This document shows, piece by piece, positions 10,953-43,454 of a stretch of 64,000 nt of DNA (position 1 is its first letter; every line of letters starts with the position of its first letter). The notes under the pieces are model-generated. The model was given only the letters and a program-made list of their open reading frames with translations. It was not told the origin of the DNA and searched no databases. Source of the stretch: Isoptericola jiangsuensis (lineage in GTDB: Bacteria > Actinomycetota > Actinomycetes > Actinomycetales > Cellulomonadaceae); contig NZ_PDJJ01000001.1 of the NCBI RefSeq assembly GCF_002563715.1, forward strand, positions 62,001 to 126,000. The letters are read 5' to 3'. The position numbers and the translations under genes were made by a program.

Positions 10953-11809
10953 GGCACGTGCGGGACGCCGTACCGAGCGGCCCGCCCCCCGGAGCACCGG
11001 CCCCGCCCGCGCACGGCCGGGTGCGGCACCGTGGCGGGGTGCTCGGCGCGGTCGTCGGGTTCGTCGGCGAGCTGCTCATCACCGCCGGGGTGTTCCTCGG
11101 CCTGTTCGTCGTCTGGCAGCTCTGGTGGACCGACGTGCAGGCGGACCGGGTGCACACCGAGGTGATGGCGGCCCAGGACTGGCCGGACCCGCCCGTGGTG
11201 ACGGAGGCCGACGAGGGTCCGGCCGTCGCGACGGAGCACCGCGGGGAGCCGCCGGTGCTGGACGAGCCGCCGCTGGAGGACGTGTTCGCGCGCTTCTACG
11301 TGCCCCGCTGGGGTGGCGACTACGAGGAGCCGGTCGCGCAGGGCGTCGACAAGGCGACGGTGCTGGACCGGCTCGGCATCGGCCACTACCCGGGCACCGC
11401 GATGCCGGGCGACGTCGGCAACTTCGCCGTGGCGGGCCACCGCACCACGTACGGCAAGCCGTTCCACCGGGTGGCCGAGCTGAAGAAGGGTGACGCGCTC
11501 ATCGTCCGTACCAAGGACACCTGGTACGTGTACAAGATGACGGAGCACCAGATCGTGTGGCCCCACCAGGTCGAGGTGGTCTCCCCCGTGCCCGGGCTGA
11601 TGCCCGGCGAGCCCGTCCCCGAGCTCACCCGGCGGTTCATCACCATGACGGCCTGCCACCCCATGTACTCCGCGGCGCAGCGGTACATCGTGCACGGCGA
11701 GCTGGACTACTGGGCGCCCGTCAGCGAGGGCACCCCGGCCGAGCTGCTGGACGCCGGCTACGACGTCCAGGCGGCGGCCGCTACCCTCGTCCCGACGGGG
11801 GTGAGATGA
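10949..11809 (+). CDS. Class E sortase
   Basis: This membrane-anchored cysteine transpeptidase attaches secreted proteins to the cell wall; actinobacterial class E enzymes favour LAXTG signals. A single membrane helix lies at about 33-58. The active-site His is in AGHRTTYG (about His164), the Cys in TMTACHPMYS (about Cys236) and the Arg in AQRYIVHG (about Arg245). It has 286 residues. GTG 10949 overlaps the DUF881 stop by four bases. The stop in turn overlaps the next small gene, so all four genes to 12623 look like one translationally coupled operon. Confidence 0.92.
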   Translation: MRHVRDAVPSGPPPGAPAPPAHGRVRHRGGVLGAVVGFVGELLITAGVFLGLFVVWQLWWTDVQADRVHTEVMAAQDWPDPPVVTEADEGPAVATEHRGEPPVLDEPPLEDVFARFYVPRWGGDYEEPVAQGVDKATVLDRLGIGHYPGTAMPGDVGNFAVAGHRTTYGKPFHRVAELKKGDALIVRTKDTWYVYKMTEHQIVWPHQVEVVSPVPGLMPGEPVPELTRRFITMTACHPMYSAAQRYIVHGELDYWAPVSEGTPAELLDAGYDVQAAAATLVPTGVR

Positions 11810-14778: not shown

Positions 14779-16212
14779 TCAGACGTCCTTCTCGGTCGTG
14801 GCCGCCCCCAGCAGGGGCGACGGTTCTGGGAGCATCATCCCAGAGTCGGGCACGGTCGACGCCTGCGACATCACGCCGATCCGCGTGGTCGCGGCCGTCA
14901 GGGCGCCGGAGGCGCCGTCGTCACCGTCGGAACCGCCCAGGAGACCGCTGACGACGGACGCGACGGCGAGCACGACCAGCAGTCCCAGGAGCGCGAGCAG
15001 GGGCCACGAGAAGCGGCCGAGGGGGCCCAGGCGCTGGCCCGTCGTCGTCGACGCGCGCCGGGCCGGCGGGTCGTCCGGCCGGTGCAGGTCGCTGCGGCTG
15101 CGCGTGCCCTGCGGCGGGGTGGGGCGGTGCATGGAGGTGCTGCGCAGGTCGCGCCGCGCCGGGTAGGACCGGGGCGGCGGCGGGGTGTCGCGCGGCGACT
15201 CGGGGGCCGTGGGCGGGCGGGTCGGCACGGGGTCGGGACGCGTGCGCTGCCGCGGCGCGGCGGGGACGTCCGACGGCGTGTCGGTGCGGCCCTGGGCGTC
15301 GTCGGGGCGGGCGTGCCGGACCGGCGCGGGCTTCCCCGTGCGGGCGGCGCGGCGCGCGGCGCGCGACCGGGCGCCCAGCGGGTCCTCCGCGATCTCGTGG
15401 GCGAGCGCGTCCAGCTCGTTGGCCAGGGCCTCCCCCGAGGCCGGTCGGCGGCCCGGGTCCTTGGCGAGCAGCCGCATGATCACGTCGACCAGGCCCGGGT
15501 GCACGGTGGTCGGCAGCGGGGGCACCGCGCTGTTGACGTGCGCGACCGCGATGTCCACCGGGGTGGAGCCGGTGAACGGCCGCCGTCCCGCCGTCGCCTC
15601 GTACGCCACGATGCCCAGGGCGTACAGGTCGGACGCCGGCGTCGCGGGCTGCCCGACCGCCTGCTCCGGGGAGAGGTACTGGGCGGTGCCCATCACCATG
15701 CCCGTCGCCGTCATCGTCGCCTGGTTCGCCGCCAGGGACACCCCGAAGTCGGTGATCTTCACCGCGCGGGTGTTGTGCTCCAGCAGGATGTTGCCCGGCT
15801 TGACGTCGCGGTGCACCACCTTCGCCAGGTGGGCGTGGTGCAGGCCGCGCGCCGTGGCCGACAGGATCGGCAGGAGGTGGCGCGGCGCGATGACGGGTTC
15901 GCGCTCCAGCAGGTCGGCCAGCGGTTCGCCCAGCACGAGCTCCATGACGAGGAACCCGGCGCCGTCCTGCTCGCCGTAGTCGTACATCTGCGCGATGTTC
16001 GGGTGCGACAGGGCGGCGCTGTTGCGCGCCTCCGTCCGCAGCCGCTTGAGGAAGTCCTCGTGGCCGGTGTACTCCTCGCGCAGCACCTTCACGGCGACGT
16101 CGCGGCCCAGGTAGCCGTCGTCGGCCACCCACACCTCGCCCATGCCGCCGACGGCGATGCGCCGCGTCAGGCGGTAGCGGTCGCCCAGGGAGATGCCCAC
16201 CGCCGGCCTCAT
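14779..16212 (-). CDS. pknA: Ser/Thr protein kinase PknA
   Basis: This is the second kinase of the division operon. The 477 residues include a kinase domain with VAVKV (about Lys42), HRDVKPGN (about Asp136) and DFG near 155-157. A long Pro/Arg-rich cytoplasmic linker (about 280-400) and one membrane helix (about 404-427) follow, with a short extracellular tail that has no PASTA domain. ATG 16212 overlaps the pbpA stop (ATGA). Phosphorylation of FHA proteins and RodA-associated factors is known for the family. Confidence 0.95.
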   Translation of the reverse strand: MRPAVGISLGDRYRLTRRIAVGGMGEVWVADDGYLGRDVAVKVLREEYTGHEDFLKRLRTEARNSAALSHPNIAQMYDYGEQDGAGFLVMELVLGEPLADLLEREPVIAPRHLLPILSATARGLHHAHLAKVVHRDVKPGNILLEHNTRAVKITDFGVSLAANQATMTATGMVMGTAQYLSPEQAVGQPATPASDLYALGIVAYEATAGRRPFTGSTPVDIAVAHVNSAVPPLPTTVHPGLVDVIMRLLAKDPGRRPASGEALANELDALAHEIAEDPLGARSRAARRAARTGKPAPVRHARPDDAQGRTDTPSDVPAAPRQRTRPDPVPTRPPTAPESPRDTPPPPRSYPARRDLRSTSMHRPTPPQGTRSRSDLHRPDDPPARRASTTTGQRLGPLGRFSWPLLALLGLLVVLAVASVVSGLLGGSDGDDGASGALTAATTRIGVMSQASTVPDSGMMLPEPSPLLGAATTEKDV

Positions 16213-25588: not shown

Positions 25589-27625
25589 TCAGCTGCCGAT
25601 CCGCTTCCAGCGGCAGCCGAACGTCTCGAAGCCCTCGTCGGAGCTGCGGATGCGCACGGTGTCCCCGGCGTCCCCGGAGCCACGGGCGATGACGTTCCGG
25701 CCCTGGGGCCCGGTGTAGCCGAGGAACGACCGCAGGCGGGTCCAGTGGCACTGCTCGTCGGCGAACACCGGTCCGGACGTCTCGTACAGTCCGGGTCGGA
25801 GCTGGCTGCCGACCTTGAGCACCCCGTCCGCCGCGGTCCGGCTCTGCTGGCCCCCGACCGGGTAGAACTTGTACCAGGAGCCGCAGCCGTATGTACGGAA
25901 GTACTCGTCGGACGACTTGATGGTGACGATCCGTTGTCCGTACCCGTAGTCGTTGGCCAGCTCTCCCTTGGCGGTGTTCCTCGCGTCGGAGCGTCGCGAC
26001 CAGGTGCACCACGTGTCGCCCCAGGCGTAGGCCACGTACGTGCCCGGCTTGATGTCACGGCCGACCTTGAAGGTGCCCTCCCGGGTCAGCGCGGGCCTCG
26101 GCAGCTTGACCTTCGACGTCCGGTCGCTGGTGCGCGACGTCGGCAGGTAGGTCTTGCGGTGCGCGGTGACGGTGACGGTGACGCGCTTGCCGTAGTCGGC
26201 CCCGCGCAGCTTGTACGTCCGGCCGGTGGCGACGGTCTTGCCGCCGACCTTCCACCGGTAGGTGAAGGACGACGGGTCGGGGTCCCAGTTCCCGCGGGTG
26301 ACGCGCAGGGTGGAGCCGAGGCGGACCTCGCCGGTGATCTTCGGCTGCGGTGTGCGGGTGAAGGGCTTGGCGACGGCGGCGCCGCTGCTGGTGACGGCCT
26401 TGGCGGTGAAGCCGGTGCGGTACCCGGTGACGGTGACGGTGATCTTCTTGCCGGCCTGCTTCGCCTTGGGTGTGTAGGTGGACGACGTGGCGCCGGAGAT
26501 GGCGCGGCCGTCGATCTTCCACCGGTAGCGCAGGGTGGTGGGGCGCGGCGACCAGGAGCTGGTGCGGGGCTGCGCGGTGAGCTTCTTGCCGACCTTCGCC
26601 TTGCCGCCGACGAGCCCGGCGATGGTGGGCCGGGGTGCGGACAGCACGCCGGCGGCGACGGTGCGGGCGGCGCTGGTGCGGGTGACGGGCGCGGAGCCGC
26701 TGCGGGTGCCGGTGACCTTGACGGTGAGCCGGTCGCCGCGCTGCGCGGCGGTGAGCGTGAAGGTCGAGGCGTCGGCGCCGGAGACGGCGCGCCCGTCGGC
26801 GTACCAGCGGTAGGTGAGCCGGGTCCCGGTGGGCCAGGTGCCGGGCCGCGCGGTGACCTTCTTGCCGACCTGCACGGTGCCGGAGATCGTGGGGGTGGGC
26901 CACACGGGGGCGGCGGCCACGGTGACGGCCGCGGTCTCGGCCGTGGCGTCGTCGTGGCCGGCGAGGCTGCCGACGACGCGCAGCACGAGGGACCGGCCGG
27001 CGTGCGCTGACGTCAGGGTGAGGGTGTCGGCGGTGGACACGGGCGTCCCGTCGACCAGCCACGTGGTGGCGAGTGCCGTCCCTGCTGCCCAGGTTCCGGG
27101 GTCGGCGGCGACGGTCGAGCCGACCTCGACGCGTCCCGAGACCTTCGGCGTCCCCGGGCGGAGGGTGCCCGGCGCGACGGTGCCGACGGGCACGCGGACC
27201 GTCGCCGACGCGGGCGGGTCGCCGGGCAGGGTGCCGGTGACGTCGAGCGCGAGCGTGGTGCCCACGAGGTCGGCCGTGGGGGTGAGGGTGTGGGTGGTCG
27301 CGCCGGCGACCGGTACGTCGTCCGCGACCCACTGGTAGGTGAGGTCCAGGCCGGTGGTGGGCTGCCAGTCGGAGGCGCGCCCGGAGACGTCGAGGCTGCC
27401 CCCGACGGCGATGTTCCCGTCGACGAAGAACGTCTCCGGGGCCGGGGCGACGACCTGCGGCGTCACCGGCGCGGAGACGCTGGGCGTCGGCTCGGGCAGG
27501 GGGTCGTCGGCGGACGCGGGGGCGACGCCGACGGTGGGGCCGACGAGCAGGGCGAGGGCGGTGGTGACGGTGACGAGGGCGCGCGGGCGGCGGCGCCGGC
27601 CGGCGTGCACGGTCGAGACGGGCAA
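25589..27625 (-). CDS. Large secreted protein with repeated Ig-like domains
   Basis: This 678-residue exported protein has a basic signal peptide ending near ASADD. Five to six repeats follow, each about 85 residues, with the pattern PxIxGxVxVGxxLxAxPGxW and LTYRWxxDGxxISGATxxTY, typical of actinobacterial Ig-like adhesion modules. The last 170 residues form two related units with WCTWSRR and QCHWTRL plus SSDEYFRTYGC and SSDEGFETFGC, where paired Cys are likely disulfide-bonded. No LPXTG or enzyme motif is present, so it may be released or bind the wall. TTG 27625 has GAAGGGA five bases upstream. The substrate is unknown. Confidence 0.78.
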   Translation of the reverse strand: MPVSTVHAGRRRRPRALVTVTTALALLVGPTVGVAPASADDPLPEPTPSVSAPVTPQVVAPAPETFFVDGNIAVGGSLDVSGRASDWQPTTGLDLTYQWVADDVPVAGATTHTLTPTADLVGTTLALDVTGTLPGDPPASATVRVPVGTVAPGTLRPGTPKVSGRVEVGSTVAADPGTWAAGTALATTWLVDGTPVSTADTLTLTSAHAGRSLVLRVVGSLAGHDDATAETAAVTVAAAPVWPTPTISGTVQVGKKVTARPGTWPTGTRLTYRWYADGRAVSGADASTFTLTAAQRGDRLTVKVTGTRSGSAPVTRTSAARTVAAGVLSAPRPTIAGLVGGKAKVGKKLTAQPRTSSWSPRPTTLRYRWKIDGRAISGATSSTYTPKAKQAGKKITVTVTGYRTGFTAKAVTSSGAAVAKPFTRTPQPKITGEVRLGSTLRVTRGNWDPDPSSFTYRWKVGGKTVATGRTYKLRGADYGKRVTVTVTAHRKTYLPTSRTSDRTSKVKLPRPALTREGTFKVGRDIKPGTYVAYAWGDTWCTWSRRSDARNTAKGELANDYGYGQRIVTIKSSDEYFRTYGCGSWYKFYPVGGQQSRTAADGVLKVGSQLRPGLYETSGPVFADEQCHWTRLRSFLGYTGPQGRNVIARGSGDAGDTVRIRSSDEGFETFGCRWKRIGS

Positions 27626-27887
27626 CGTTGTCCCTTCGGTGGGCGTCGACCGAGGCGTCGACGCGCGCCGAACCTAGCGCGGGCTCCCACCCCGTTCCCA
27701 GGGGTTTCGCAGGAGACCTGCGCCACAACCGGACATTTCACCCGCTCGGGCCCTTGCGGAGACCGGTGGGCGCGGGCCGTGGCGTGTTCGCGTCATGGCG
27801 TGGACACGTCACCCGGAGGCCTCCCGCGGGCCCGTCCGCGGTGCGAGCGTGGGGCCACCCCCGTCCTCGACAGATCGGAAACCGACG

Positions 27888-30800
27888 ATGTCCCGTCCAC
27901 CCTCCGCACGTCTCCAGCGGTCGTTGGCGGCGGCGGGCGCCGTCGCGGCCGTGGCCGCGACGTCGTTCGTGCTGCCCTCGTCGGCCGCCGACGACCCCGA
28001 CCTCGGGGTCCCCGGCGACGCGCTGTTCAGCACCGCGGGCCGCGCCGACGACGCCGCGACCGGACCGACGACGACGCCGGTCACGCTGGTGACGGGTGAC
28101 ACGGTCCTGCTGACCGTCGCGGCGGACGGCTCCCCGACGGTCGCGGTCCCCGGTGACGTCGAGGTGGTGACCAAGCGGGTCGGCGACGACCTGTACGTCT
28201 ACCCCACCTCCGTCCTGGACGCGGTGCGGGACGACCGGCTGGACCCCGAGCTGTTCAACGTGACCGGTCTGGTGGCCCAGGGCTACGGGGACACCGAGCG
28301 CGACGACCTCCCCCTCATCGTCTCGGGCGCGGTCCCGGCGTCGCGGGCGGCGGGCGTCACGTCGACGGCGGAGCTGGAGTCGATCGGCGCGACGGCCGTC
28401 ACGGTGGACAAGGACGGTGCGGGGGCGCTCCTCGGCCGCCTGCTGGGCACGGCCCGCTCGGCGGGCACGGCGCAGAAGGTGTGGCTGGACGCCATGGTCC
28501 CGGCGCTCGATGACCCGACCTCGGACCTGGTGACGTCGACGTCCGTGCCGGCGGCCACGGCACTCGACCCGGGCACGGGGGTCGAGCAGACGGGCGCCCC
28601 GCTGGCGTGGGACCGCGGCCTCACCGGGGCCGGCGTCACCGTCGCGGTGCTGGACTCCGGCTACGACGCGACCCACCCGGACCTCGAGGGCCGCGTCGTC
28701 GGCACCGCGGACTTCACCGGGCGTGGCATGACGGACTCGGGCGGGCACGGCACGCACGTCGCCTCGACGATCGCGGGCACCGGGGCCGCCGACCCGAGCC
28801 GCGTCGGGATGGCCCCGGACGCGGACCTGCTGGTCGGGCACGTCCTCAACGACACGGGCGGGCAGCTGTCCTGGATCGTCGACGGCATGGAGTGGGCCGT
28901 GGAGTCCGGCGCGGACGTCGTCAACATGAGCCTCGGCAGCCGCGACTCGTCGGACTGCACCGACCCGCTGTCCCTGGCGGCGCAGGAGCTCACCACGACG
29001 TCGGACACGCTGTTCGTCGTGGCGGCCGGCAACGACGGGTCGGCCCGGTCGACCGTCGCGTCCCCCGCCTGCGTGGAGGGGGTGCTCACCGTCGCCGCGG
29101 TCGACGCCGACGGTGCGACGGCACCGTTCTCGAGCCGCGGCGCGACGGTCGGCGAGCACCGGGTCAAGCCCGACGTCGCCGCCCCGGGCGTACAGGTCGT
29201 CGGAGCCTGGGCCACGAGCCCGGGTGGCGTCCGCTACCGCGCGATGTCCGGCACGTCGATGGCGTCCCCGCACGTCGCCGGTGCGGCGGCGATGGTGCGC
29301 CAGGCGCACCCGGGCTGGACGGCCGCGCAGGTCAAGGCCGCGATCACGGCGGGCGTGAAGGACGAGCGCGCCGACGGCGTGTACGCCCAGGGCGCCGGTG
29401 AGCTGTGGGTGCCGGGGGCGGTGGACGCGGAGGTGACGACGCCGTCCGGCGTCCTGCTGGGTGCGTTCGACTGGCCGCACGGCCGCGATCAGCGCACGAC
29501 GACGTCGGTGACGTACACCAACGGCTCGGACGAGGACGTGCGCGTGTCGGTCGCGGTCGCCGACCTGCTCGGCGCCGACGGCGGCACGGTGCCGTCCTCG
29601 CTGGTCCAGGTCGACCACCGGCCCGTCGTGGTGCCGGCGGGCGGCAGCGTCGACGTGCCGGTGTCGGTCCGGCCGGACCTGCCGCTGCGCGACGACGCCT
29701 ACGGCGAGATCGGTGCACGGCTCGTCGCGACGGTGACCGACGCGGCCGGCTCCCGCTCGACCGTGACGACCGCCGTCGGCGCGTGGGTCGAGCCGGAGAC
29801 CGTCGAGGTGACGTTCCGCGTCCTCGACGGCCTGGGCGAGCCGGCGACCCGCGGCGTCCTGGACGTCACGGACCTGCACCAGCCGACGCGGTCCTACACG
29901 CCGCTGACCGGCACCGACCAGACCCTGGCGCTCCGCGCGGGCGAGCACTCCGTGGCGGCCCTGGTCCGCACGGACGACGCCGACGGCGCCGAGTGGGCGT
30001 CGATCAGCGTGCCCTCGGCGATCCTGGACCGCGACCGGACCGTCGTCCTCGACGCCCGCGACGCCGTGCCGGTGACGGTGGAGGCGGACCGCCCCCTCGA
30101 CCTCACGTCCGGCAGCCTGGTCGCGCAGCGCACCTGGGACGACACGTGGATCGTCGAGACGGCGGTGCGGGCGAACGGGACCACGTTCGCCGTCGCGCCG
30201 ACGGCCGCGGTCCGTCGCGGCACGTTCACGCAGGCCACGTTCCTGCGCGGTCTCGAGCCGGGCACCCCGGAGGCGGACAGCCCGTACGTGTACAACCTCG
30301 CGTTCGTCGAGGAGGGACGCGTCGGCACGGACCAGGCGCGGACGGCGCACGACGCCGACCTCGCGACGGTCACCGAGCACTGGTACGCCCAGCGGGACGG
30401 CTGGCGGGCCGTCGAGGTGGCGCAGGTCGTCCCGGCGCAGGGCGGCATCGTCACCGTGTCCGGGACGGGGGCGATCAACACGCCCACCACGCGGACGGCC
30501 TACTACTCGCCCGACGTGCCCTGGCGCCAGTCGGCGTCCAGCACGACGCGCATGGCCGAGACGTGGACGGACCCCGTGCGCACCTACGGCGCGGGCGAGC
30601 AGCGCTCGACCGACTGGTTCAAGCTGCCGACGAGCACCGCCCTGCCCGCCGACGCGAGCGGCGCCCCCGGCCGGGTCGCGGAGCGGCAGGGCACGCTGGT
30701 CGGCTTCGCGTTCCCGCACTGGCAGGACACCGTCGACGGACGGTTCGGCGAGGCCGGGTTCCGGGACGTCGGGAACGTGCAGGTCTGGGTCGACGGCGTG

Positions 30801-31334
30801 TACCGGGGGGCCTCGGCGTTCCCCCGCGCACAGCTCACCGTGGCTCCGGGGTCGCACGAGATCCGGATGTTGCTGACCCAGCTCCGCTGGGGTCGTGGCG
30901 ACACGTGGGAGCTCGGGACCGGTGCGATGACGACGTTCAGGTTCGTCTCGGACCAGCCGGACGGCGACGAGGTCGCGGCCCTGCCGGTCGCGATCCCGCG
31001 CTACGACGCCGACGTGGACGACCACAACCGGGCCCCGGCGGAGGACGGGTTCCCGGTGGCGGTCGAGCTGCACGGTCAGGACGGGTACGACCCGGGCGCC
31101 GTCGTGCAGATGTCCGCGCAGTTCACGTTCGAGAAGATCGACGTGCGTGGGAGCAAGGCGCCGTCGGAGTACACCTGGACGGACGCGCGCGTGGAGCGTC
31201 GTGACGGACGGTGGGTCGTGCTGGTCGACAATGCCGGACGCTCGGGCGAGACGGTGTCGCTGCACGTGTCGACGACGGACGAGCACGGCTCCGCGGTCGA
31301 CCAGTACCTGATCGACCTGTACGCGGTCGGCTGA
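27888..31334 (+). CDS. Secreted S8 family (subtilisin-like) serine protease
   Basis: This large extracellular protease has 1148 residues. The signal peptide ends near SSAADD. A propeptide-like segment precedes the catalytic domain, which has Asp in VLDSGYDATHPDLEG (about 256), His in GHGTHVAS (about 287) and Ser in GTSMASPHVAG (about 457). The roughly 600-residue C-terminal part is beta-rich without a recognised repeat. ATG 27888 gives a proper signal peptide; the upstream ATG at 27795 does not. It is divergent from the Ig-like protein gene, with 262 bases between in which no clear operator was found. Confidence 0.9.
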   Translation: MSRPPSARLQRSLAAAGAVAAVAATSFVLPSSAADDPDLGVPGDALFSTAGRADDAATGPTTTPVTLVTGDTVLLTVAADGSPTVAVPGDVEVVTKRVGDDLYVYPTSVLDAVRDDRLDPELFNVTGLVAQGYGDTERDDLPLIVSGAVPASRAAGVTSTAELESIGATAVTVDKDGAGALLGRLLGTARSAGTAQKVWLDAMVPALDDPTSDLVTSTSVPAATALDPGTGVEQTGAPLAWDRGLTGAGVTVAVLDSGYDATHPDLEGRVVGTADFTGRGMTDSGGHGTHVASTIAGTGAADPSRVGMAPDADLLVGHVLNDTGGQLSWIVDGMEWAVESGADVVNMSLGSRDSSDCTDPLSLAAQELTTTSDTLFVVAAGNDGSARSTVASPACVEGVLTVAAVDADGATAPFSSRGATVGEHRVKPDVAAPGVQVVGAWATSPGGVRYRAMSGTSMASPHVAGAAAMVRQAHPGWTAAQVKAAITAGVKDERADGVYAQGAGELWVPGAVDAEVTTPSGVLLGAFDWPHGRDQRTTTSVTYTNGSDEDVRVSVAVADLLGADGGTVPSSLVQVDHRPVVVPAGGSVDVPVSVRPDLPLRDDAYGEIGARLVATVTDAAGSRSTVTTAVGAWVEPETVEVTFRVLDGLGEPATRGVLDVTDLHQPTRSYTPLTGTDQTLALRAGEHSVAALVRTDDADGAEWASISVPSAILDRDRTVVLDARDAVPVTVEADRPLDLTSGSLVAQRTWDDTWIVETAVRANGTTFAVAPTAAVRRGTFTQATFLRGLEPGTPEADSPYVYNLAFVEEGRVGTDQARTAHDADLATVTEHWYAQRDGWRAVEVAQVVPAQGGIVTVSGTGAINTPTTRTAYYSPDVPWRQSASSTTRMAETWTDPVRTYGAGEQRSTDWFKLPTSTALPADASGAPGRVAERQGTLVGFAFPHWQDTVDGRFGEAGFRDVGNVQVWVDGVYRGASAFPRAQLTVAPGSHEIRMLLTQLRWGRGDTWELGTGAMTTFRFVSDQPDGDEVAALPVAIPRYDADVDDHNRAPAEDGFPVAVELHGQDGYDPGAVVQMSAQFTFEKIDVRGSKAPSEYTWTDARVERRDGRWVVLVDNAGRSGETVSLHVSTTDEHGSAVDQYLIDLYAVG

Positions 31335-33316: not shown

Positions 33317-33332
33317 CTGTACCGAAGTACAG
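33317..33332. promoter_or_regulatory. Palindromic operator upstream of the M16-like gene (CTGTAC-N4-GTACAG)
   Basis: The core TGTAC-CGAA-GTACA (33318-33331) is extended by C and G. The same core with spacer TTTC occurs at 36431-36444 before the kinase and peptide genes. TACCGT (33355-33360) could be the -10 for the gene at 33397, which puts the palindrome over or just upstream of the -35 region, fitting an activator site. A NarL-type response regulator is encoded between the two sites. Confidence 0.55.
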
Positions 33333-33396
33333 GTCGGGTCGCGGGGAACGTTCCTACCGTCGGTGGTGTCCTGGCACGACGACGTCGAGGAGCGAC

Positions 33397-34434
33397 ATGC
33401 GGGGTCTCCAGCTCACCAGCACGTACCTTCCTGACGACGTGCCGTCGCCGTACGACCTGCGCCTCGGCCCGGTCCGCGGGGACGCCGCCCGCCGCGCCGG
33501 CGGTCACGCCCCGACGACCTCCGGGCCGCTCGCGGTCGTGGACGACCGGGCGCCGGTCACGGCGCTCGCCCTCGCCTGGCCGTCGGACGTCGCCGAGGAC
33601 CGCCCCGACGCCGCGACGGTCGACCAGGCGCGGCGTGCGGCGATCTCCCGGGAGGTGCTGGAGCACGGGTCGGACGTCGTGGTCGACGTCGTCTGGTCGC
33701 CCGGGACCGGGGCCGACCTGGTGACGTTCGTGCTGCCGCACGCCGCCGCCGTGGACGAGGCGCCCCGCCTCGTGGACGTGGTGCGTTCCCGGCTCGCGCA
33801 CCCCGACCCCGTGGTCGCCGTCGTCGGCCCGGCCGACGTCGTGGCGGGCACCGCGGCGCTCACGACGCGCCGCCTGCGACCTCCCGCCCCGCCGGTCGTG
33901 AGCACGATGCGGCAGAGCCGTGTCCAGGGGTTCGACCAGGTGTGCATCATCGGCGCGGACCCGGCGGCCGAGGTCGGGCACGCCGCCACGCTGGTGTCGC
34001 TCTGCCGCGCCGCCGCCGGCCCCGGGAGCCTCGTCCCGCAGGCGCTGTCCGACGCGGGGGTGCGGGCCTCGGTGCAGCCGGTGCGCTGCCTGCGCGACGG
34101 CGCCCCGGTCATCACCTGGCACGTCGTGTGCCGGGCCGGGGACAGCATGCTCACCCTGGAGACCCTCGCCGCCACCCTCCTGGACCCGCGGCTCACCGCG
34201 GACCCGGCCGCGACCGACGCCACCCGGGAGGTGGTCCGGGAGAACCTGCGACGGGTCCGGCGCTCGCCGCAGGGCCTCGCGGGGTCGCTCGCCGAGTACT
34301 CGGTGATGGGCTGGGGCGCGCACCTGCTGGCGGACCCCGACGCCGCGCTGGACGACGTCGAGCCCGCGGACCTCGCGCAGGCGACGGCCGCGCTGGTCCG
34401 GCCCGTCGCGGACGTCCTCGGCTGGGAGGGCTGA
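33397..34434 (+). CDS. M16 (insulinase)-like protein lacking a zinc-binding motif
   Basis: This 345-residue cytoplasmic protein was not confidently recognised. The order of elements resembles an M16 peptidase: an N-terminal half with VVAVVGPADVVAGTAAL before a Pro-rich linker, then QSRVQGFDQVCIIGAD. The C-terminal half ends SLAEYSVMGWGAHLLADPDAALDDVEPADLAQATAAL, like an M16 C-domain with its helical ending. No HxxEH metal motif is present, so it is probably not a peptidase by itself; inactive M16 partners exist in other systems. GAGGAG precedes ATG 33397. It is convergent with the response regulator (4 bases between stops) and preceded by the shared palindrome. Confidence 0.45.
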   Translation: MRGLQLTSTYLPDDVPSPYDLRLGPVRGDAARRAGGHAPTTSGPLAVVDDRAPVTALALAWPSDVAEDRPDAATVDQARRAAISREVLEHGSDVVVDVVWSPGTGADLVTFVLPHAAAVDEAPRLVDVVRSRLAHPDPVVAVVGPADVVAGTAALTTRRLRPPAPPVVSTMRQSRVQGFDQVCIIGADPAAEVGHAATLVSLCRAAAGPGSLVPQALSDAGVRASVQPVRCLRDGAPVITWHVVCRAGDSMLTLETLAATLLDPRLTADPAATDATREVVRENLRRVRRSPQGLAGSLAEYSVMGWGAHLLADPDAALDDVEPADLAQATAALVRPVADVLGWEG

Positions 34435-34438
34435 GGGT

Positions 34439-35104
34439 TCAGGAGTCGTCGCGGAGGTCGACGAGCCCGTGGCGTGCCGCGGTGACGAGGATCTGCACGC
34501 GGTCGCGCACCCCGAGCTTCTCCATCACCTTGACGAACCGCGCCTTCACCGTGGACTCGGTGACGTACAGCTCCTGCGCGATCTCCCGGTTGCTCATCCC
34601 GCGGGCCAGCAGCCGGATGACCTCCAGCTCCTTCTCCGTCAGCGCCGCCAGGAGCGTGGCGTCGGGACGCACCTGGGCCGGCACCGACGCCTCCAGCCCG
34701 CGCACGACGTGCCGTGCCACCTCGGGGGACAGCACGGCGTCCCCGGCGGCGACGGTGTGCACGGCGGCGATGATGTCCCGCGGCAGGGTGTCCTTCACGA
34801 GGTAGCCCGACGCCCCGGCCCGCAGCAGGTCGATGACGTAGCGGTCCGTGGAGAACGTCGTCAGGCCCAGCACCGCGACGTCGGGGTGCTCGGCGAGGAT
34901 CTGCGCGGTCGCGGCGACGCCGTCCAGGACGGGCATCTGCATGTCCATGAGCACGACGTCGGGCCGCAGCGCGGCGGTCTGCTGGACGGCCACCCGCCCG
35001 TTGGACGCCTCCCCCACGACCTGGATCGACGGGTCGGCCGACAGGTAGTCGCGCAGGGTGTCGCGGATCATCGACTCGTCGTCGACCAGCAGCACCTGGA
35101 TCAT
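34439..35104 (-). CDS. NarL/LuxR-family response regulator
   Basis: This DNA-binding response regulator has 221 residues. The receiver domain (1-120) has the acidic pair at 8-9, phosphoacceptor Asp54 in VLMDMQMP, a conserved Thr and KD near 104. A C-terminal LuxR-type HTH (about 150-215) reads LTEKELEVIRLLARGMSNREIAQELYVTESTVKARF. ATG 35104 overlaps the kinase stop by four bases. Family members bind short inverted repeats as dimers, so it is the natural candidate to bind TGTAC-N4-GTACA at 33318 and 36431. Confidence 0.92.
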   Translation of the reverse strand: MIQVLLVDDESMIRDTLRDYLSADPSIQVVGEASNGRVAVQQTAALRPDVVLMDMQMPVLDGVAATAQILAEHPDVAVLGLTTFSTDRYVIDLLRAGASGYLVKDTLPRDIIAAVHTVAAGDAVLSPEVARHVVRGLEASVPAQVRPDATLLAALTEKELEVIRLLARGMSNREIAQELYVTESTVKARFVKVMEKLGVRDRVQILVTAARHGLVDLRDDS

Positions 35105-36357
35105 GCGTTCGGGACTCCCTCGGTGGTGGGGCGGACCCGCGCGTCCAGCGGGATCGTCATGGTGGTGCGCCAGCGGCCGTCGTGGGCGCCGGCCGTGAGC
35201 TCGCCGCCGAACACCTCGCAGCGGGCGCGCATGGCCTCGAGGCCGGTCAGCGACGAGGAGATCGGGGCGGCGGTCGCGACGACGTTCGTCGAGGCGAGGG
35301 TGACGCTGTCCGGCCCGACGGTGAGCCGTAGCTCGACGGGGGCGGCGGCGTCGCCGTGCTTGAGGATGTTGGTGCCCAGCTCGCGCACCGTGCGGCGCAG
35401 GGCCTGGCGCAGGCTGGTCGGCACGCGGGAGACCGCCCCGGTGGTGGTCAGGTGGGCCGTGAACCCGGCGCGTTCGAGGGCGTCGCCGACGCCGTGGAAG
35501 TCGCGGACGAACGCGGCCGCCGTCGTGGTCTCGCCGGACATCTCGAGCGCCTCGACGGTGCTGGCGCCGGGTTCGGCGGGATCGCCCGGGCCGACGCCGA
35601 CGGCGGTGGGCGGGGCGTCCTCCTTGAGGAGCACGACGAGGCTGCGCAGGTTCTGCAGCGCCTGCTGCGCGGCCCGCCCGATGTTGTCGAGGATCGCGGT
35701 CGTCTTGTCGGGGTCGGCGACGAACTCCGCGCGCCGTGCCTGCATGGCGATGATCGTGACGTCGTGCGCGACGATGTCGTGCAGCTCGTGGGCGAGCCGG
35801 GTGCGTTCCTCGTTGCGGATCCGGGCCTGGCGTTCCTCGAGCTCGCGGACCTGGGTCTCGCTGTGCTCGGAGCGGAGCCGGAAGAAGTTGACGGTGAGCC
35901 CGGCCACGGCCGCGAGGAGCGTGAGGACGGCGAGCCCGGCGGCGAGGACGGCGCCGTCCGGGTTGGCGACGAGCACCAGCGGCATCGTGGCGACGGCGGA
36001 GGCGGCGACCACCGCGGCGGCCACCCAGGGCAGCAGGTACGTGCAGAACCCGATGACGAGGATCGTCGGGAAGGCGAAGGCGGACACCAGCAGGGACTGG
36101 GCGCCGAGGGCGAGGACGGCGGCGAACGCGACGAACCAGGCGGCGGTGGCGGGGACGGGGCCGATCGCCAGGCCGAGCACGGGGACGTAGGGGAGCAGGA
36201 GCTCGGCGACGCCGCGCGGGGACGACAGCTCGAGCGTGCCGCCGGTCGCGTCGAGCGCGACGAGGCCCAGGAACGCGAGCACGAGCAGGACCCGCGCGAC
36301 CCAGCCTCCCGGCAGGGGCCGGACCTGTCCCGTCGTCCGCACCGTCCCTGCTGTCAC
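35101..36357 (-). CDS. NarL-type sensor histidine kinase (HisKA_3)
   Basis: This membrane sensor kinase has 418 residues. The N-terminal third (about 20-160) has five to six membrane helices with short loops and no large extracellular domain, so it probably senses a membrane or small-peptide signal. The HisKA_3 dimerisation domain has ELHDIVAHDVTIIAMQARR with phosphoacceptor His193. The ATPase N-box is RELGTNILKHG (about Asn330); the G-box is SLTGLEAMRAR. It starts with GTG at 36357. It is divergent from the 59-residue peptide gene across 190 bases with two palindromes. Confidence 0.9.
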   Translation of the reverse strand: MTAGTVRTTGQVRPLPGGWVARVLLVLAFLGLVALDATGGTLELSSPRGVAELLLPYVPVLGLAIGPVPATAAWFVAFAAVLALGAQSLLVSAFAFPTILVIGFCTYLLPWVAAAVVAASAVATMPLVLVANPDGAVLAAGLAVLTLLAAVAGLTVNFFRLRSEHSETQVRELEERQARIRNEERTRLAHELHDIVAHDVTIIAMQARRAEFVADPDKTTAILDNIGRAAQQALQNLRSLVVLLKEDAPPTAVGVGPGDPAEPGASTVEALEMSGETTTAAAFVRDFHGVGDALERAGFTAHLTTTGAVSRVPTSLRQALRRTVRELGTNILKHGDAAAPVELRLTVGPDSVTLASTNVVATAAPISSSLTGLEAMRARCEVFGGELTAGAHDGRWRTTMTIPLDARVRPTTEGVPNA

Positions 36358-36430
36358 GTTCGTCAGGATAGGCGGGCGCGTCGTACGGCGGCCTGCGCGG
36401 GGCCGGATCCTGAGACCTCCACCACCCGCT

Positions 36431-36444
36431 TGTACTTTCGTACA
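36431..36444. promoter_or_regulatory. Palindromic operator TGTAC-N4-GTACA between kinase and peptide genes
   Basis: This is the same core as at 33318-33331, with a different spacer (TTTC). It lies 74 bases from the kinase start and 104 bases from the peptide start. TCTATC (about 36464-36469) is a possible -10 for the peptide gene, so the site would sit near its -35. Probable target of the adjacent response regulator. Confidence 0.55.
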
Positions 36445-36449
36445 TCGCA

Positions 36450-36461
36450 GAAGTCGACTTC
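36450..36461. promoter_or_regulatory. Perfect 12-base palindrome GAAGTCGACTTC
   Basis: It begins five bases after the TGTAC palindrome, between it and the possible -10 of the peptide gene. It could be a second operator, perhaps for a repressor. No other copy was noticed in the window. Confidence 0.4.
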
Positions 36462-36547
36462 CGTCTATCGGCCGACGACCTGAGCCCCGGGATGGTCGAT
36501 CCGACCCCGGGACGCCCCGGGGATCCGCACACGGAAGAGGTCGTCAC

Positions 36548-36727
36548 ATGCTCACCTCCACGATCGCCGGCACGCTCGTCGCCGCCGCTCTCGTCGGACC
36601 GCCGGCCGAGGCCCCGGTCGAGCTCGCCCCCGTGACGTCTCAGGTCGTCGTCGTCGGCACCGGCCCGGACGTCTCGACGGACTACTGGCGCGAGATGTGG
36701 TGCATCACCCTCGGCTGGTGCAAGTAG
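36548..36727 (+). CDS. 59-residue peptide with Trp/Cys-rich C-terminus, candidate signal or RiPP precursor
   Basis: This small gene was not recognised. Residues 1-22 are hydrophobic (MLTSTIAGTLVAAALVGPP) but carry no Lys or Arg at the start, so it is either an atypical signal peptide or a leader. A Val/Pro-rich middle is followed by a C-terminus DYWREMWCITLGWCK with three Trp and two Cys. GGAAGAGG lies seven bases before ATG 36548, and a strong terminator follows. It is divergent from a two-component pair and shares their operator. Thr54 and Cys58 are spaced for a lanthionine ring, but no modifying enzyme is encoded nearby. A disulfide-bonded secreted peptide or a ComX-like pheromone precursor is possible. 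Confidence 0.6.
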   Translation: MLTSTIAGTLVAAALVGPPAEAPVELAPVTSQVVVVGTGPDVSTDYWREMWCITLGWCK

Positions 36728-36841: not shown

Positions 36842-38269
36842 TCAGGACACGGCGGGGACCACGGCGTCGCTCGGTGCCTGCACGGGCAGGATCGCCCCGG
36901 TGCGGTGCTTGCCCCACGCCTTCACCGCGGCCGGTGAGGTCAGCACCTCGAGGTCGTAGACGTCCGCGGGGTCCCAGTCGACGCCCCAGGTGATCTCCGC
37001 GGGCAGCGTCGCCCGCAGGTCCACGGGCTGCATCGCGAACCACGAGCCGGAGTCCACGAACGACCCGCCCGCGCCCCAGACCAGGCGGGACGCGTCGGCG
37101 CCCGGACCCGTGTACTCGAAGAGGTTGCGCTCCGAGACGACCTGCGACTCGACGCCGACCCCGATGAAGTAGCCCGCACCGGGTCGCACCGGTGACACGG
37201 GGTCCTTCACCGAGGCCGTGAAGTAGTTGTTGACGACGTGCGCCTTGCCGAACCGCACGCGCGGGGAGCGCTGGGTGACGCCGTCGAACACGTTGCGCAC
37301 GAACGTGACGTTGAGCCGGCCCTCGTCGGTGTCGCCGTTGTCGTCGCCCGAGCCGATGAGCATCGCCTTGTCGTGGTCCTCGACCCTGCTGTTCGACATC
37401 GTCACGAAGTCGGTGCCGTCCTTGAGGTCGAACAGGCCGTCGTGGAAGTTGACCGGCTTGCCGTTCGGACCGGTCGGGGCCGTGCTGTCGGGGAACCGGC
37501 CGTCGGTGAGGGTGACGTGGTCTAGCCAGATGTTCGTGCTGGTCACCGACGACACGGCGTCGAAGCGGGCGTTCCACGAGCCCTGCTCGCCGTCCCACGG
37601 GTCCCAGCTGCTGAAGAAGTCGCGGGGCGCCTCGACGGTGAGGTTGCGGACCACCACGTCGTGCGCGAGGTGCAGCATCACCGTCGCGCCGCGGATCTCG
37701 GCGTCGTCGCCGACGCCGAGGATGGTCGTCTCGCTCGGCACCGAGATCTCGGTCTGCCGCTTGAGGTTGTTGCTGCCGGTCTGCCGCTTGCGCCGCTGAT
37801 CGCCGCAGTAGTCGTGGGTGGCGTCGCTCCAGCCGGTCTCGGTGAAGCAGCTGAGGTACTTCTCCAGGTCGTAGCCCGGGGCGTAGTCCTGCTCGCCCAT
37901 GAGCGTGCCGTCGGCCCGCTCGTTGCCGTCGATGACCCCGTCGACGTAGATGACCTTCGGCGCGGTGCGCTGCCCGCCGTTGTCGAGCGCGGCCAGCAGC
38001 TCGGCGCGCGTGGACACGACGTAGGTGGACGACGCGGGGGCGCCGGCCCCGCCGTCGGTGCCGCCGTTCGCGGTGGCCCACCCGGTGGGGGCCGCGTCCT
38101 GGGCGAGGTCGTGGACGGCGGACAGGTCGTCCGGGGCGGCCTGGGCGGCGGGTCCGAGCGGCGCGGCGAGGGCGCCGGCGGTCAGGACCGCGGTGGCGAT
38201 CGCGAGACGACCACGGCGGCGGACGGCGGGTCCGGTGGCGGTCGGGTGGGGGGTGGCCTGGTGGGGCAC
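36842..38269 (-). CDS. Secreted pectate lyase, PL1 family
   Basis: This extracellular lyase cleaves polygalacturonate by beta-elimination with Ca2+. The 475 residues include a signal peptide ending near AAQA. The parallel beta-helix has the PL1 signatures NIWLDHVTLTDG, HDGLFDLKDGTDFVTMSNS (Ca-binding Asp residues) and RSPRVRFGKAHVVNNYF (catalytic Arg). GTG 38269 has GAGGAG upstream. A LacI-type palindrome begins 17 bases before the start, so it is probably induced by pectin breakdown products. Confidence 0.9.
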   Translation of the reverse strand: MPHQATPHPTATGPAVRRRGRLAIATAVLTAGALAAPLGPAAQAAPDDLSAVHDLAQDAAPTGWATANGGTDGGAGAPASSTYVVSTRAELLAALDNGGQRTAPKVIYVDGVIDGNERADGTLMGEQDYAPGYDLEKYLSCFTETGWSDATHDYCGDQRRKRQTGSNNLKRQTEISVPSETTILGVGDDAEIRGATVMLHLAHDVVVRNLTVEAPRDFFSSWDPWDGEQGSWNARFDAVSSVTSTNIWLDHVTLTDGRFPDSTAPTGPNGKPVNFHDGLFDLKDGTDFVTMSNSRVEDHDKAMLIGSGDDNGDTDEGRLNVTFVRNVFDGVTQRSPRVRFGKAHVVNNYFTASVKDPVSPVRPGAGYFIGVGVESQVVSERNLFEYTGPGADASRLVWGAGGSFVDSGSWFAMQPVDLRATLPAEITWGVDWDPADVYDLEVLTSPAAVKAWGKHRTGAILPVQAPSDAVVPAVS

Positions 38270-38285
38270 GACGACTCCTCGACGG

Positions 38286-38303
38286 TGAGAAAGCGGTTTC
38301 TCA
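38286..38303. promoter_or_regulatory. LacI-type operator upstream of the PL1 pectate lyase
   Basis: TGAGAAAGCGGTTTCTCA is an 18-base near-perfect palindrome with a central CG, as bound by LacI-family repressors. Two related sites lie before the other pectate lyase gene at 40555-40592. Confidence 0.65.
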
Positions 38304-40429: not shown

Positions 40430-40745
40430 CTCTGCTCCCTGTCGTCCTGCCGCCTTCCTCAACGGTCCGGGCGTCGAGGGCGTTCCGTGCCGGGGCGCCG
40501 GTCCTGGCCGACGGGAGGGTCGTCACCACGGTAAGCGCGGTGGGGGCTTGCCGAGTGGGAAACCGGTCTCTAGAGTGGGAAACCGGTTCCTAGCGGAACC
40601 TGTCTCATCTGGGTGACCCCGTTCCACCGTCGGACCGGGGTTGCGACAGGGGCCTCGTGATGAGTCCGCGCGTCGACGACGACGCGTGCGTACGACCCGG
40701 CGACCACCGGGGCACTGCCCGATTCGACGACGAAGTGAGGCAACG
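40430..40745. other. Divergent regulatory region before the large pectate lyase gene
   Basis: This 316-base gap holds no gene. It contains two LacI-type operators (40555-40592) and a 150-base leader before the lyase start. No clear -10/-35 pair was fixed for either direction. Confidence 0.6.
40555..40592. promoter_or_regulatory. Two tandem LacI-type operators before the PL1-PL9-like gene
   Basis: GTGGGAAACCGGTCTCTA (40555-40572) and GTGGGAAACCGGTTCCTA (40575-40592) are direct repeats exactly 20 bases apart. Each is centred on a palindrome GGAAACCGGTTCC-like core. The 20-base period puts them on nearly the same helix face. Their cores resemble the operator at 38286. Confidence 0.72.
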
Positions 40746-43454
40746 ATGAGAAGAGCAGCCGCAGCCCGGCTCACCGCGGCAGGGGCCACCTTGGCCCTCG
40801 CCGCCACGATGGGCGCGACCGCCCTGTGGACGACCGACGCGCAGGCCGCGACCGGCACCGCCACGGGCTTCGCCACGCAGAACGGCGGGACGACCGGCGG
40901 CGCCGGCGGCCAGACCGTCCGGGCCACCACCGGTACGCAGATCCACCAGGCGCTGTGCAACAGGGCCGCCGACGACACCCCGATCATCATCGAGGTCGAG
41001 GGCACCATCAACCACGGCAACACCGCGAAGGTGTCCGGGGACTCCTGCAACACCGCCGACGGCGTGATCGAGCTCAAGGAGATCAGCAACGTCACCCTCG
41101 TGGGCGTGGGCTCCGGGGCGCTGTTCGACGAGCTCGGCATCCACATCCGCTCGGCCGAGAACATCATCATCCAGAACGTCCACGTGCGGAACGTGAAGAA
41201 GTCCGGCTCCCCCACCTCCAACGGCGGCGACGCCATCGGCATGGAGTCCGACGTCTCCAACGTCTGGGTCGACCACGTGACCCTCGAGGCGTCCGGCGGC
41301 GAGTCCGAGGGCTACGACGCCCTGTTCGACATGAAGGCGGACACCACGTTCGTCACGCTGTCGTACTCGATCCTGCGCAACTCCGGTCGTGGCGGCCTCG
41401 TGGGGTCCAGCGACTCCGACACGGGCAACGGCCCGGTGACCTACCACCACAACCTGTACGAGAACATCGACTCCCGCACGCCGCTGCTGCGCGCGGGCAC
41501 CGCCCACTCGTACAACAACCACTACCTCGGCCTGGTGAAGTCGGGCATCAACGCCCGCCTGGGTGCGAAGGCCCTGGTGGAGAACAACTACTTCGAGGAC
41601 TCGCGCGACCCGCTCGGCACGTTCTACACCGACGACATGGGGTCGTGGGAGGTCGCGGGCAACGTCTGGGACAACATCACCTGGTCGGCCGAGGGCAGCG
41701 ACAACCACCCCGCGGGCCCGGAGCCGACGTCGACGACGAACGTGAGCGTGCCCTACGCCTACGACCTCGACGCGGCCGCGTGCGTCCCGGCCCTGCTCGC
41801 CGCCACCGCCGGCGCGAACAAGGGCCTGCAGGTCTCGGACGGGTCCTGCTCGCCGCAGACCCCGGAGCCCACCCCGACGCCGACGACCGAGCCGACCACG
41901 GACCCGACGGGCGAGCCCACCACCGAGCCGACCGAGCAGCCGGAGCCCGGTACGGGAGCGATCTACGTCGCCCCGAACGGCACCGCGGGCGCGGCCGGCA
42001 CCCTCGCCGCGCCGACGACGCTCGCCACGGCGATCACCCGCGTGCAGCCGGGCGGCGAGATCTACCTGCGCGGCGGCACGTACAACCTGTCGCAGACGAT
42101 CACCATCCAGCCGGGCAACGACGGGACGTCGTCCGACCGCACCCTGCTGTCGGCGTACCCCGGCGAGAAGCCGGTGCTGAACTTCTCCGCGCAGGCCGAG
42201 AACTCCGCCAACCGCGGCCTCGCCATCGGCGGCGACTGGTGGCACGTCTACGGCATCGTCGTGGAGCACGCCGGCGACAACGGAATCCTGCTGGGCGGCG
42301 ACAACAACGTCATCGAGCGCGTCGTGACGCGCTTCAACCACGACACCGGGCTGCAGATCGCCCGGCTCGTCGCGGGTGCCCCGTCGAGCGAGTGGCCGTC
42401 GAACAACCTCGTGGTCTCGTCCGAGTCGCACGACAACGCAGACTCCGACGGTGAGGACGCCGACGGTTTCGCGGCGAAGCTCACCGCCGGTCCCGGCAAC
42501 GTGTTCCGCGACACCGTCGCCCACCACAACATCGACGACGGCTGGGACCTGTACACGAAGACCGACACGGGCCCCATCGGCACGGTGACGATCGAGAACT
42601 CCCTCGCCTGGGAGAACGGCACGCTGTCCAACGGCGCCCAGGCCGGCAACGGTGACCGCAACGGGTACAAGCTCGGCGGCGAGGACATCCCGGTCAACCA
42701 CACCATCCGCAACTCCTACGCGGTGGACAACGGCAAGCACGGCCTGACGTACAACTCGAACCCGGGCTCCATCACGGTGACGAACAACGTGTCCGTGGGC
42801 AACGCCCAGCGGAACTTCTCGTTCGACGAGGGCACGCACCGCTACAGCGGCAACACGTCCTGCGACTCGGGCTCGAACGACAAGACGGTCGGCACCGACC
42901 TCGGCGGCAACCAGTTCGACACCGGGTCCAACGGGTCGCGCTGCTCGGCCTACGACGGTGACCTCGCCTGGTGGTTCGCGGCCGACGGGTCCCTGCAGGT
43001 GAGCTTCGGCGGGTCCACCCCGACGCCCACCCCGACCCCGACCCCGACCCCGACGCCCGAGCCCACCCCGACCCCGACGGCCCCGACCGGCACCAACCTG
43101 TCGATCGGCGCCGGCTCGGACGGGTCGAGCAAGGCGAGCGGCACCAGCTACGGCAACGTGCGTGACGGCGACCTCGCCACCTACTGGTCGCCGTCCGGGT
43201 CGACCGGCACCATCTCGATCAAGTGGGACTCCGCGAAGACGGTGTCGAAGATCGTCGTGAGGACGGCCTCCGGCAGCGGCTCGATCACCGGCTGGCGGAT
43301 CGTGAACAACGACACCGGTGCGGTGCTGAAGTCCGGCACCGGGACCCCCGGCACGGTGAGCTTCACCGCGACGTCGCTGTCCAAGGTCAACCTGGTCATC
43401 ACCGGCGCCTCGGGCACCCCCCGGATCGCCGAGCTGGAGACCTACGCGGGCTGA
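40746..43454 (+). CDS. Secreted multidomain pectate lyase (PL1, PL9-like and C-terminal sugar-binding domain)
   Basis: This 902-residue extracellular enzyme has a signal peptide ending near AQAA. A PL1 domain (about 45-350) contains NVWVDHVTLEAS, YDALFDMKADTTFVTLS and SRTPLLRAG. A Pro/Thr/Glu-rich linker (about 378-405) leads to a PL9-like right-handed beta-helix (about 410-750) with GGTYNLSQTITIQPG and DADGFAAKLTAGPGN. A second TPTP linker leads to a 120-residue C-terminal F5/8 type C-like domain (SIGAGSDGSSKASGTSYGN onward), probably sugar binding. The two catalytic folds suggest combined attack on pectate chains. ATG 40746 matches the signal peptide. Confidence 0.88.
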   Translation: MRRAAAARLTAAGATLALAATMGATALWTTDAQAATGTATGFATQNGGTTGGAGGQTVRATTGTQIHQALCNRAADDTPIIIEVEGTINHGNTAKVSGDSCNTADGVIELKEISNVTLVGVGSGALFDELGIHIRSAENIIIQNVHVRNVKKSGSPTSNGGDAIGMESDVSNVWVDHVTLEASGGESEGYDALFDMKADTTFVTLSYSILRNSGRGGLVGSSDSDTGNGPVTYHHNLYENIDSRTPLLRAGTAHSYNNHYLGLVKSGINARLGAKALVENNYFEDSRDPLGTFYTDDMGSWEVAGNVWDNITWSAEGSDNHPAGPEPTSTTNVSVPYAYDLDAAACVPALLAATAGANKGLQVSDGSCSPQTPEPTPTPTTEPTTDPTGEPTTEPTEQPEPGTGAIYVAPNGTAGAAGTLAAPTTLATAITRVQPGGEIYLRGGTYNLSQTITIQPGNDGTSSDRTLLSAYPGEKPVLNFSAQAENSANRGLAIGGDWWHVYGIVVEHAGDNGILLGGDNNVIERVVTRFNHDTGLQIARLVAGAPSSEWPSNNLVVSSESHDNADSDGEDADGFAAKLTAGPGNVFRDTVAHHNIDDGWDLYTKTDTGPIGTVTIENSLAWENGTLSNGAQAGNGDRNGYKLGGEDIPVNHTIRNSYAVDNGKHGLTYNSNPGSITVTNNVSVGNAQRNFSFDEGTHRYSGNTSCDSGSNDKTVGTDLGGNQFDTGSNGSRCSAYDGDLAWWFAADGSLQVSFGGSTPTPTPTPTPTPTPEPTPTPTAPTGTNLSIGAGSDGSSKASGTSYGNVRDGDLATYWSPSGSTGTISIKWDSAKTVSKIVVRTASGSGSITGWRIVNNDTGAVLKSGTGTPGTVSFTATSLSKVNLVITGASGTPRIAELETYAG

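Follow-up and report, generated by a model that had tools for sequence, protein, structure and literature searches.

The peptide, kinase, regulator and M16-like genes described here probably form a peptide-pheromone/two-component circuit that, on comparative sequence evidence, derives from the control genes of a class V lanthipeptide cluster. Support comes from the conservation of the genes and their operator, a fixed promoter spacing, the recurrence of peptides with a C-terminal cysteine pair under an operator of their own, purifying selection, and the absence of the cluster itself.

Architecture of the locus

The locus lies in a stretch of 64,000 nucleotides (the window) belonging to a complete 4.04 Mb genome of Isoptericola jiangsuensis, whose relatives in the order include Arthrobacter, Glutamicibacter and Microbacterium. 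A sequence-only reading had placed four genes and two palindromes here, and these were found as reading frames and exact palindromes. The features are:

33318..33331, no strand: operator TGTACCGAAGTACA of the M16-like gene; exact palindrome, kept in the sister species (G012) and at the same place in relatives
33355..33360, plus strand: presumed -10 element TACCGT, exactly 23 bases past the operator; TANNNT at equal spacing in 14/14 ABC/M16 promoters
33397..33522, plus strand: codons 1-42 of the M16-like gene, with an MxGLQLT start and a neutral linker; presumed deletion scar
33397-34434, plus strand: M16-like protein, a predicted inactive M16B-type subunit by its orthology to the second lanthipeptide-cluster M16 gene, its fold and its lack of HxxEH
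34439-35104, minus strand: NarL/GerE-type response regulator, by Response_reg and GerE domains and orthologues
35101-36357, minus strand: HisKA_3 histidine kinase with a multi-helix membrane half, by its HisKA_3 domain, hydrophobic segments (residues 14 to 161) and orthologues
36431..36444, no strand: operator TGTACTTTCGTACA of the peptide gene; exact palindrome that fits the peptide-promoter form TGnnCTTTyGTAyA of relatives
36548-36727, plus strand: peptide gene, 59 residues, presumed pheromone precursor with the C-terminal sequence DYWREMWCITLGWCK; likeness to the sister species and counterparts in other lineages
36701..36721, plus strand: C-terminal cysteine pair CITLGWC, a presumed disulfide loop; the C-x4-6-C tail is common to the peptides

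The M16-like and regulator genes form a convergent pair. Two pectate-lyase-like genes (36842-38290 and 40641-43454) flank the region, and a large subtilisin-like protease (27795-31334) adjoins it; by the operator evidence, all three stand outside the circuit.

Conservation and selection

The locus is present in two of the 150 genomes of the family, those of the window species and its sister species; at the thresholds used, searches of the remainder found neither the kinase nor the M16-like protein. In the sister species all four genes recur in an unchanged arrangement, with both palindromes identical in sequence, and its proteins share 86% (peptide), 85% (kinase), about 92% (regulator) and 80% (M16-like) identity with those of the window. 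The bases up to the presumed -10 element are largely conserved, while the flanks have diverged. All four genes are under purifying selection, with dN/dS values (NG86) of 0.12-0.29 overall and 0.12-0.20 for the peptide gene.

Relatives beside class V lanthipeptide clusters

The lanthipeptide origin is invisible from the window alone and was seen through distant orthologues of the kinase. A kinase profile gave eight clear orthologues in the genome contigs (E about 1e-72 or better; next best 2e-19), then 23 in 395 genomes of the family of genome G231 and two more in the order. Most of them adjoin a full class V cluster, the first operon of which bears the same palindrome. No kinase relatives were found on plasmids, and searching the family around G223 added no locus.

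With a profile built on the M16-like protein, one clear distant relative was detected in the order, in G231 (E 2.7e-52); a pattern scan of the genome contigs with the same protein found none. The G231 relative is the second of two M16 genes, the first of which carries the active site HLLEH. This pair closes a gene run with an ABC ATPase, a permease, a HopA1-type lyase, a cysteine decarboxylase and an unknown protein, which also holds an LxmK equivalog (369 bits; cut-off 315) and two LxmA-like precursors, both below the family cut-off. We assign this run as a class V lanthipeptide cluster. A regulator and kinase orthologous to the window's pair are convergent with it, and the window's regulator is 73-75% identical to orthologues adjoining lanthipeptide clusters. 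The regulator, the kinase and the inactive M16 subunit have orthologues in genuine class V clusters, and in lineage after lineage a small precursor gene is genetically linked to the membrane histidine kinase and its regulator.

The sequence-only reading had proposed a self-induced secreted signal acting through the two-component system and a shared operator, to be checked by the joint occurrence of these elements in relatives. Comparative genomics supports the idea, since peptide, kinase pair and operator stay together in distant relatives.

The window itself has no class V biosynthetic genes. Nothing in the window genome or in the sister species exceeded the LxmK cut-off (best in the window genome 24 bits against 315), with G231 as the positive control at 369 bits.

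Reduced loci occur in other lineages. Four of them (L153, L169, L170 and L173) are cluster-deleted and keep an ABC transporter, the two-component system and only a C-terminal M16B fragment; they probably represent immunity and sensing without production. In Micrococcales bacterium 31B (L052, 9941-11177) the kinase gene reads as interrupted, with a frameshift near 10264, and the upstream operator-type site is retained.

The operator and its promoters

The 4.04 Mb genome contains only two exact copies of the palindrome TGTAC-N4-GTACA, one ahead of the peptide gene and one ahead of the M16-like gene, and the reversed-pattern control gave 0 exact matches genome-wide. When one mismatch was allowed, 4 extra matches were obtained compared with 5 for the control, so there is no excess. 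A one-mismatch palindrome at 25892-25905, conserved in the sister species, was not counted as an operator because it lies inside the coding region of a cell-surface-type protein and is conserved as protein sequence.

In all 14 ABC or M16 promoters compared, the palindrome is followed by exactly 23 bases and then TANNNT; the palindrome is exact in 12 of these and has one mismatch in two. The promoters come from the window genome, the sister species, Arthrobacter, Glutamicibacter, Nesterenkonia, Microbacterium and further genera, and are not all independent, several being from one genus. The fixed spacing places the operator centre near -42, the position at which LuxR-type activators usually sit. 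Since the regulator is also the common neighbour, the palindrome is very likely the site to which the regulator would bind.

Between the operator and the -10 element, GGAACGTTCC and GAAGTCGACTTC have the look of inverted repeats, which was taken as chance because their sequence and phase differ. In Arthrobacter and Glutamicibacter the main ABC operator is preceded, at 23 bases centre to centre, by a further site, TGAACTTTTGTACA (L045 805-841, L049 20361-20397 and relatives); no such site is evident before the M16-like gene of the window.

The M16-like protein and the loss of the cluster

Neither Pfam nor NCBIfam gives an M16 match for the M16-like protein. Its structure was predicted from nine relatives (pLDDT 79, pTM 0.78), a model from two sequences being too poor to use, and matches M16B peptidase subunits and bc1 core proteins with Z up to 15.9; the matches listed include TTHA1265, a Bacillus halodurans metallopeptidase and bc1 core proteins, at Z 14.7-15.9. 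The HxxEH zinc motif is absent from the M16B proteins of the window, the sister species, L045, L050 and L051, and present in the M16A protein of L045. By sequence, therefore, the protein is assigned as the inactive M16 subunit of a leader-peptidase pair and not itself a protease. It had been put forward as a processing partner of the peptide or as a binding partner: the first role is unsupported, because the protein lacks HxxEH and appears to be a relict inactive subunit of a lanthipeptide leader-peptidase pair, and the second is possible. The locus has no gene for an active partner, and elsewhere in the genome only one M16 domain has a clear match.

The start of the M16-like gene carries what may be the trace of a deletion. 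It reads MRGLQLT, and most ATPases of the relatives start with MNGLQLT or MLGLQLT, behind the same operator at the same spacing; among 367 other ATG starts with a ribosome site, GLQLT at that place was found only in ATPase starts. The match is significant at the protein level, unlike that at the nucleotide level (24 of 42 bases at best, close to the highest null values). The first 42 residues are disordered in the model (pLDDT under 50) and have a dN/dS of 0.95, which is neutral, compared with 0.23 for the rest. The simplest reading is a single deletion spanning the interval between the ATPase start and the M16B gene.

The opposite order of events was considered, namely that the stand-alone quartet of peptide, kinase, regulator and M16B is ancestral and that the lanthipeptide genes were inserted later between operator and M16B. 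This would alter the history and leave the proposed mechanism as it is. Nesterenkonia has a peptide, kinase, regulator and operator-driven M16B (dN/dS 0.21) without the cluster, Microbacterium likewise carries the quartet and no class V cluster, and the tree gives the quartet no clear root. We nevertheless consider an ancestral quartet unlikely, as the M16-like gene of the window opens with the MxGLQLT of the ATPases, whose GLQLT was seen, in the 367 other starts checked, only in ATPase starts, and an M16B subunit without an active partner makes most sense as a leftover.

A deletion also raises the question of whether the locus is a decaying remnant whose genes have no present function. Absence of the cluster from the window genome, neutral evolution of the M16-like N-terminus, presence in just two of the 150 family genomes, and the fragments and damaged peptides of related lineages would all suit such decay. 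It is nonetheless very improbable given the intact operators and promoter cores, conserved in the sister species, the constraint on all four genes, and the same quartet under constraint in Nesterenkonia. On the preferred reading, that of a functioning circuit reduced by deletion, M16B seems to keep a function in reduced circuits, because it is constrained in both the window and the Nesterenkonia loci; that it binds the precursor, or partners the genome's one other M16 protein, are guesses.

Peptides with a C-terminal cysteine pair

A query with the peptide itself gave only the sister species above noise. More distant counterparts have diverged too far for such a query and were found by synteny and, later, by cysteine-pair and operator filters. 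In most lineages a gene that adjoins the kinase, or lies across the operator from the ABC gene, codes for a small peptide that is hydrophobic towards its N-terminus and carries a cysteine pair (C-x4-6-C) at its C-terminus. Such peptides occur in about 11 diverged groups; examples are MKNIRKALAVTSIVSALTLGFSPAHAATLPEDTDVKASPASASSMSPTFFHWLCKSGICD (L168), MKKRLATLAVVAVASLGLAAPGSSAS...SFACILMRMCR (L164), MKKYLVLAVSVVPSVFAFVPAAPATTGFWCAQLGWWC (L166), MLTSAAV...NFWCAFLRMCK (L051), MSNLLFTFTFALNSIATNVAEPAFSSAIVCGTFPLFC (L049) and MTNLVCTFALALNSIAIQMAEPAVFGYWFCSNFGAMC (L048). No recognisable peptide was found in four Arthrobacter loci, in Kocuria or in L172.

A fixed cysteine-pair filter, defined only after the first peptides had been seen, gave 20 peptides and one stray in 705 kb of target loci, in which loci from one genus are not independent, compared with 1 match in 1.33 Mb of control loci. 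Upstream of 14 of the 16 peptide genes, 76-103 bases before the start codon, TGnnCTTTyGTAyA is present at 13/14 or better, where about 0.004 sites of that score are expected per 130-base window; the weak operators are those of the L174 (11/14) and L178 (12/14) peptides. A probe with the operator alone found one further peptide of the same kind, MVNLPVATSLTFGFFADSLAKPSFGSLFCSYFGVC, in L162, which is the nearest approach here to a blind test.

Some of these loci have further features. In L162 (genome G607; 13698-13910 and 15478-15840) TGTACTTTAGTACA forms a second operator ahead of another precursor, MTTIMYEAPTVF...KSWWGAGC, which differs from the cysteine-pair peptide and is RiPP- or bacteriocin-like; the circuit may therefore drive another antibiotic type. 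In Microbacterium testaceum NS220 (L051, 744-9596) the peptide gene lies directly upstream of, and on the same strand as, a RiPP cluster with YcaO, nitroreductase and lantibiotic-dehydratase genes. The pheromone gene is damaged in L167 (about 11300-11500), by a frameshift ahead of the cysteine pair, and in L169 (about 9000-9180), where the second cysteine is lost (GIYD for GICD).

The peptides of Glutamicibacter-type loci have similar leaders followed by one of two tails. The kinases of different tail types are 65% identical in their sensor halves and 85% in their catalytic halves, compared with 89% and 93%, respectively, within one tail type. That divergence of the sensor half tracks the peptide tail is suggestive only, because membrane halves often diverge faster.

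The peptide could instead be an effector, such as a small bacteriocin or RiPP precursor, with the kinase sensing the lanthipeptide, envelope stress or another cue and the regulator switching on the whole set. Co-regulation of a lanthipeptide-like ABC operon, the Microbacterium peptide gene ahead of a YcaO/dehydratase cluster, and the four Arthrobacter loci with cluster and kinase and no recognisable peptide would be in keeping with this. However, cluster-bearing loci possess LxmA precursors of their own, and the peptide persists in loci that have lost every modifying enzyme, as in the window and Nesterenkonia. The variable tail behind a similar leader, with its more divergent kinase sensor half, also points away from an effector, and secreted cysteine-pair peptides beside a membrane kinase would suit a ligand. 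Overall, an effector is rather unlikely, and we retain the pheromone reading.

Proposed mechanism

In the proposed circuit, the 59-residue precursor would be exported, and trimming would yield a short peptide carrying a cysteine pair at its C-terminus, probably closed into a disulfide loop. Export by the Sec route is uncertain for the window peptide, because its N-terminus has no positive charge and is a poor Sec signal by that measure. The processed peptide would activate the membrane kinase, which would phosphorylate the NarL-type regulator; the regulator would then bind TGTAC-N4-GTACA just upstream of the -35 region and activate both the peptide gene, as positive feedback, and a target operon. 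In relatives the target appears to be the lanthipeptide cluster with its ABC transporter. In the window, a deletion beginning at about codon 8 of the ATPase and ending close to where the inactive M16 subunit starts would have taken out everything else. What is left would be an autoinducing signal with a single further perfect-operator target, the M16-like protein.

More broadly, these loci may well represent a new family of exported Cys-loop pheromones that, with dedicated HisKA_3/NarL-type systems, controls class V clusters across the Micrococcaceae and neighbouring families. The signalling unit would have outlived the antibiotic in several lineages, among them that of the window, as a stand-alone circuit that could eavesdrop on producers or govern nothing beyond the peptide and the inactive M16 protein. 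Should the peptides prove active, a synthetic peptide of 10-20 residues could switch on silent clusters, and the reduced loci would offer a test case for a signalling system after the loss of its antibiotic.

Comparison with known systems

As in the class V clusters of lexapeptide (lxm) and cacaoidin (cao), those beside the window's relatives have LxmK, a HopA1-type lyase, LxmA-like precursors, a decarboxylase and paired M16 subunits, whereas the window has none of the biosynthetic genes. The inactive subunit of the lanthipeptide pair is of the LxmP1 type, the counterpart of the M16-like protein (PMC8068269). The regulators described for cacaoidin are one LuxR/NarL, two XRE, one TetR and one SARP protein, with no histidine kinase or peptide mentioned (PMC8068269). 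In the open-access literature searched, we found neither a control circuit of this type described for class V lanthipeptides nor a Cys-loop pheromone system from these actinobacteria, although the system may be described elsewhere; pheromone-controlled bacteriocin regulation is already known, and for class V lanthipeptides is apparently undescribed. The heterodimeric M16B peptidases (TTHA1264/1265 and Sphingomonas 3amj) share the inactive-subunit fold, with Z up to 15.9.

The likeness to ComX-ComP-ComA of Bacillus, raised in the sequence-only reading, holds as an analogy only. A peptide precursor, a multi-helix kinase, a NarL/LuxR-type regulator and a palindrome with a 4-base spacer are shared; however, the peptides here end in a cysteine pair and not in an isoprenylated Trp site, the operator sequence, TGTAC-N4-GTACA, differs, and no ComQ isoprenyl transferase was found among the listed reading frames and Pfam matches around the locus or in the sister species.

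In the three-component bacteriocin induction of lactic acid bacteria, for example the enterocin A induction factor with EntK/EntR, a small secreted peptide, a membrane kinase and a regulator likewise switch on their own genes and the bacteriocin cluster, and some of the induction factors carry a cysteine pair. In those systems the leaders are of the double-glycine type with export by ABC transporters, the kinases belong to HPK10 and the regulators to LytTR, whereas the circuit described here has Sec-like or undefined leaders, a HisKA_3 kinase and a NarL-type regulator.
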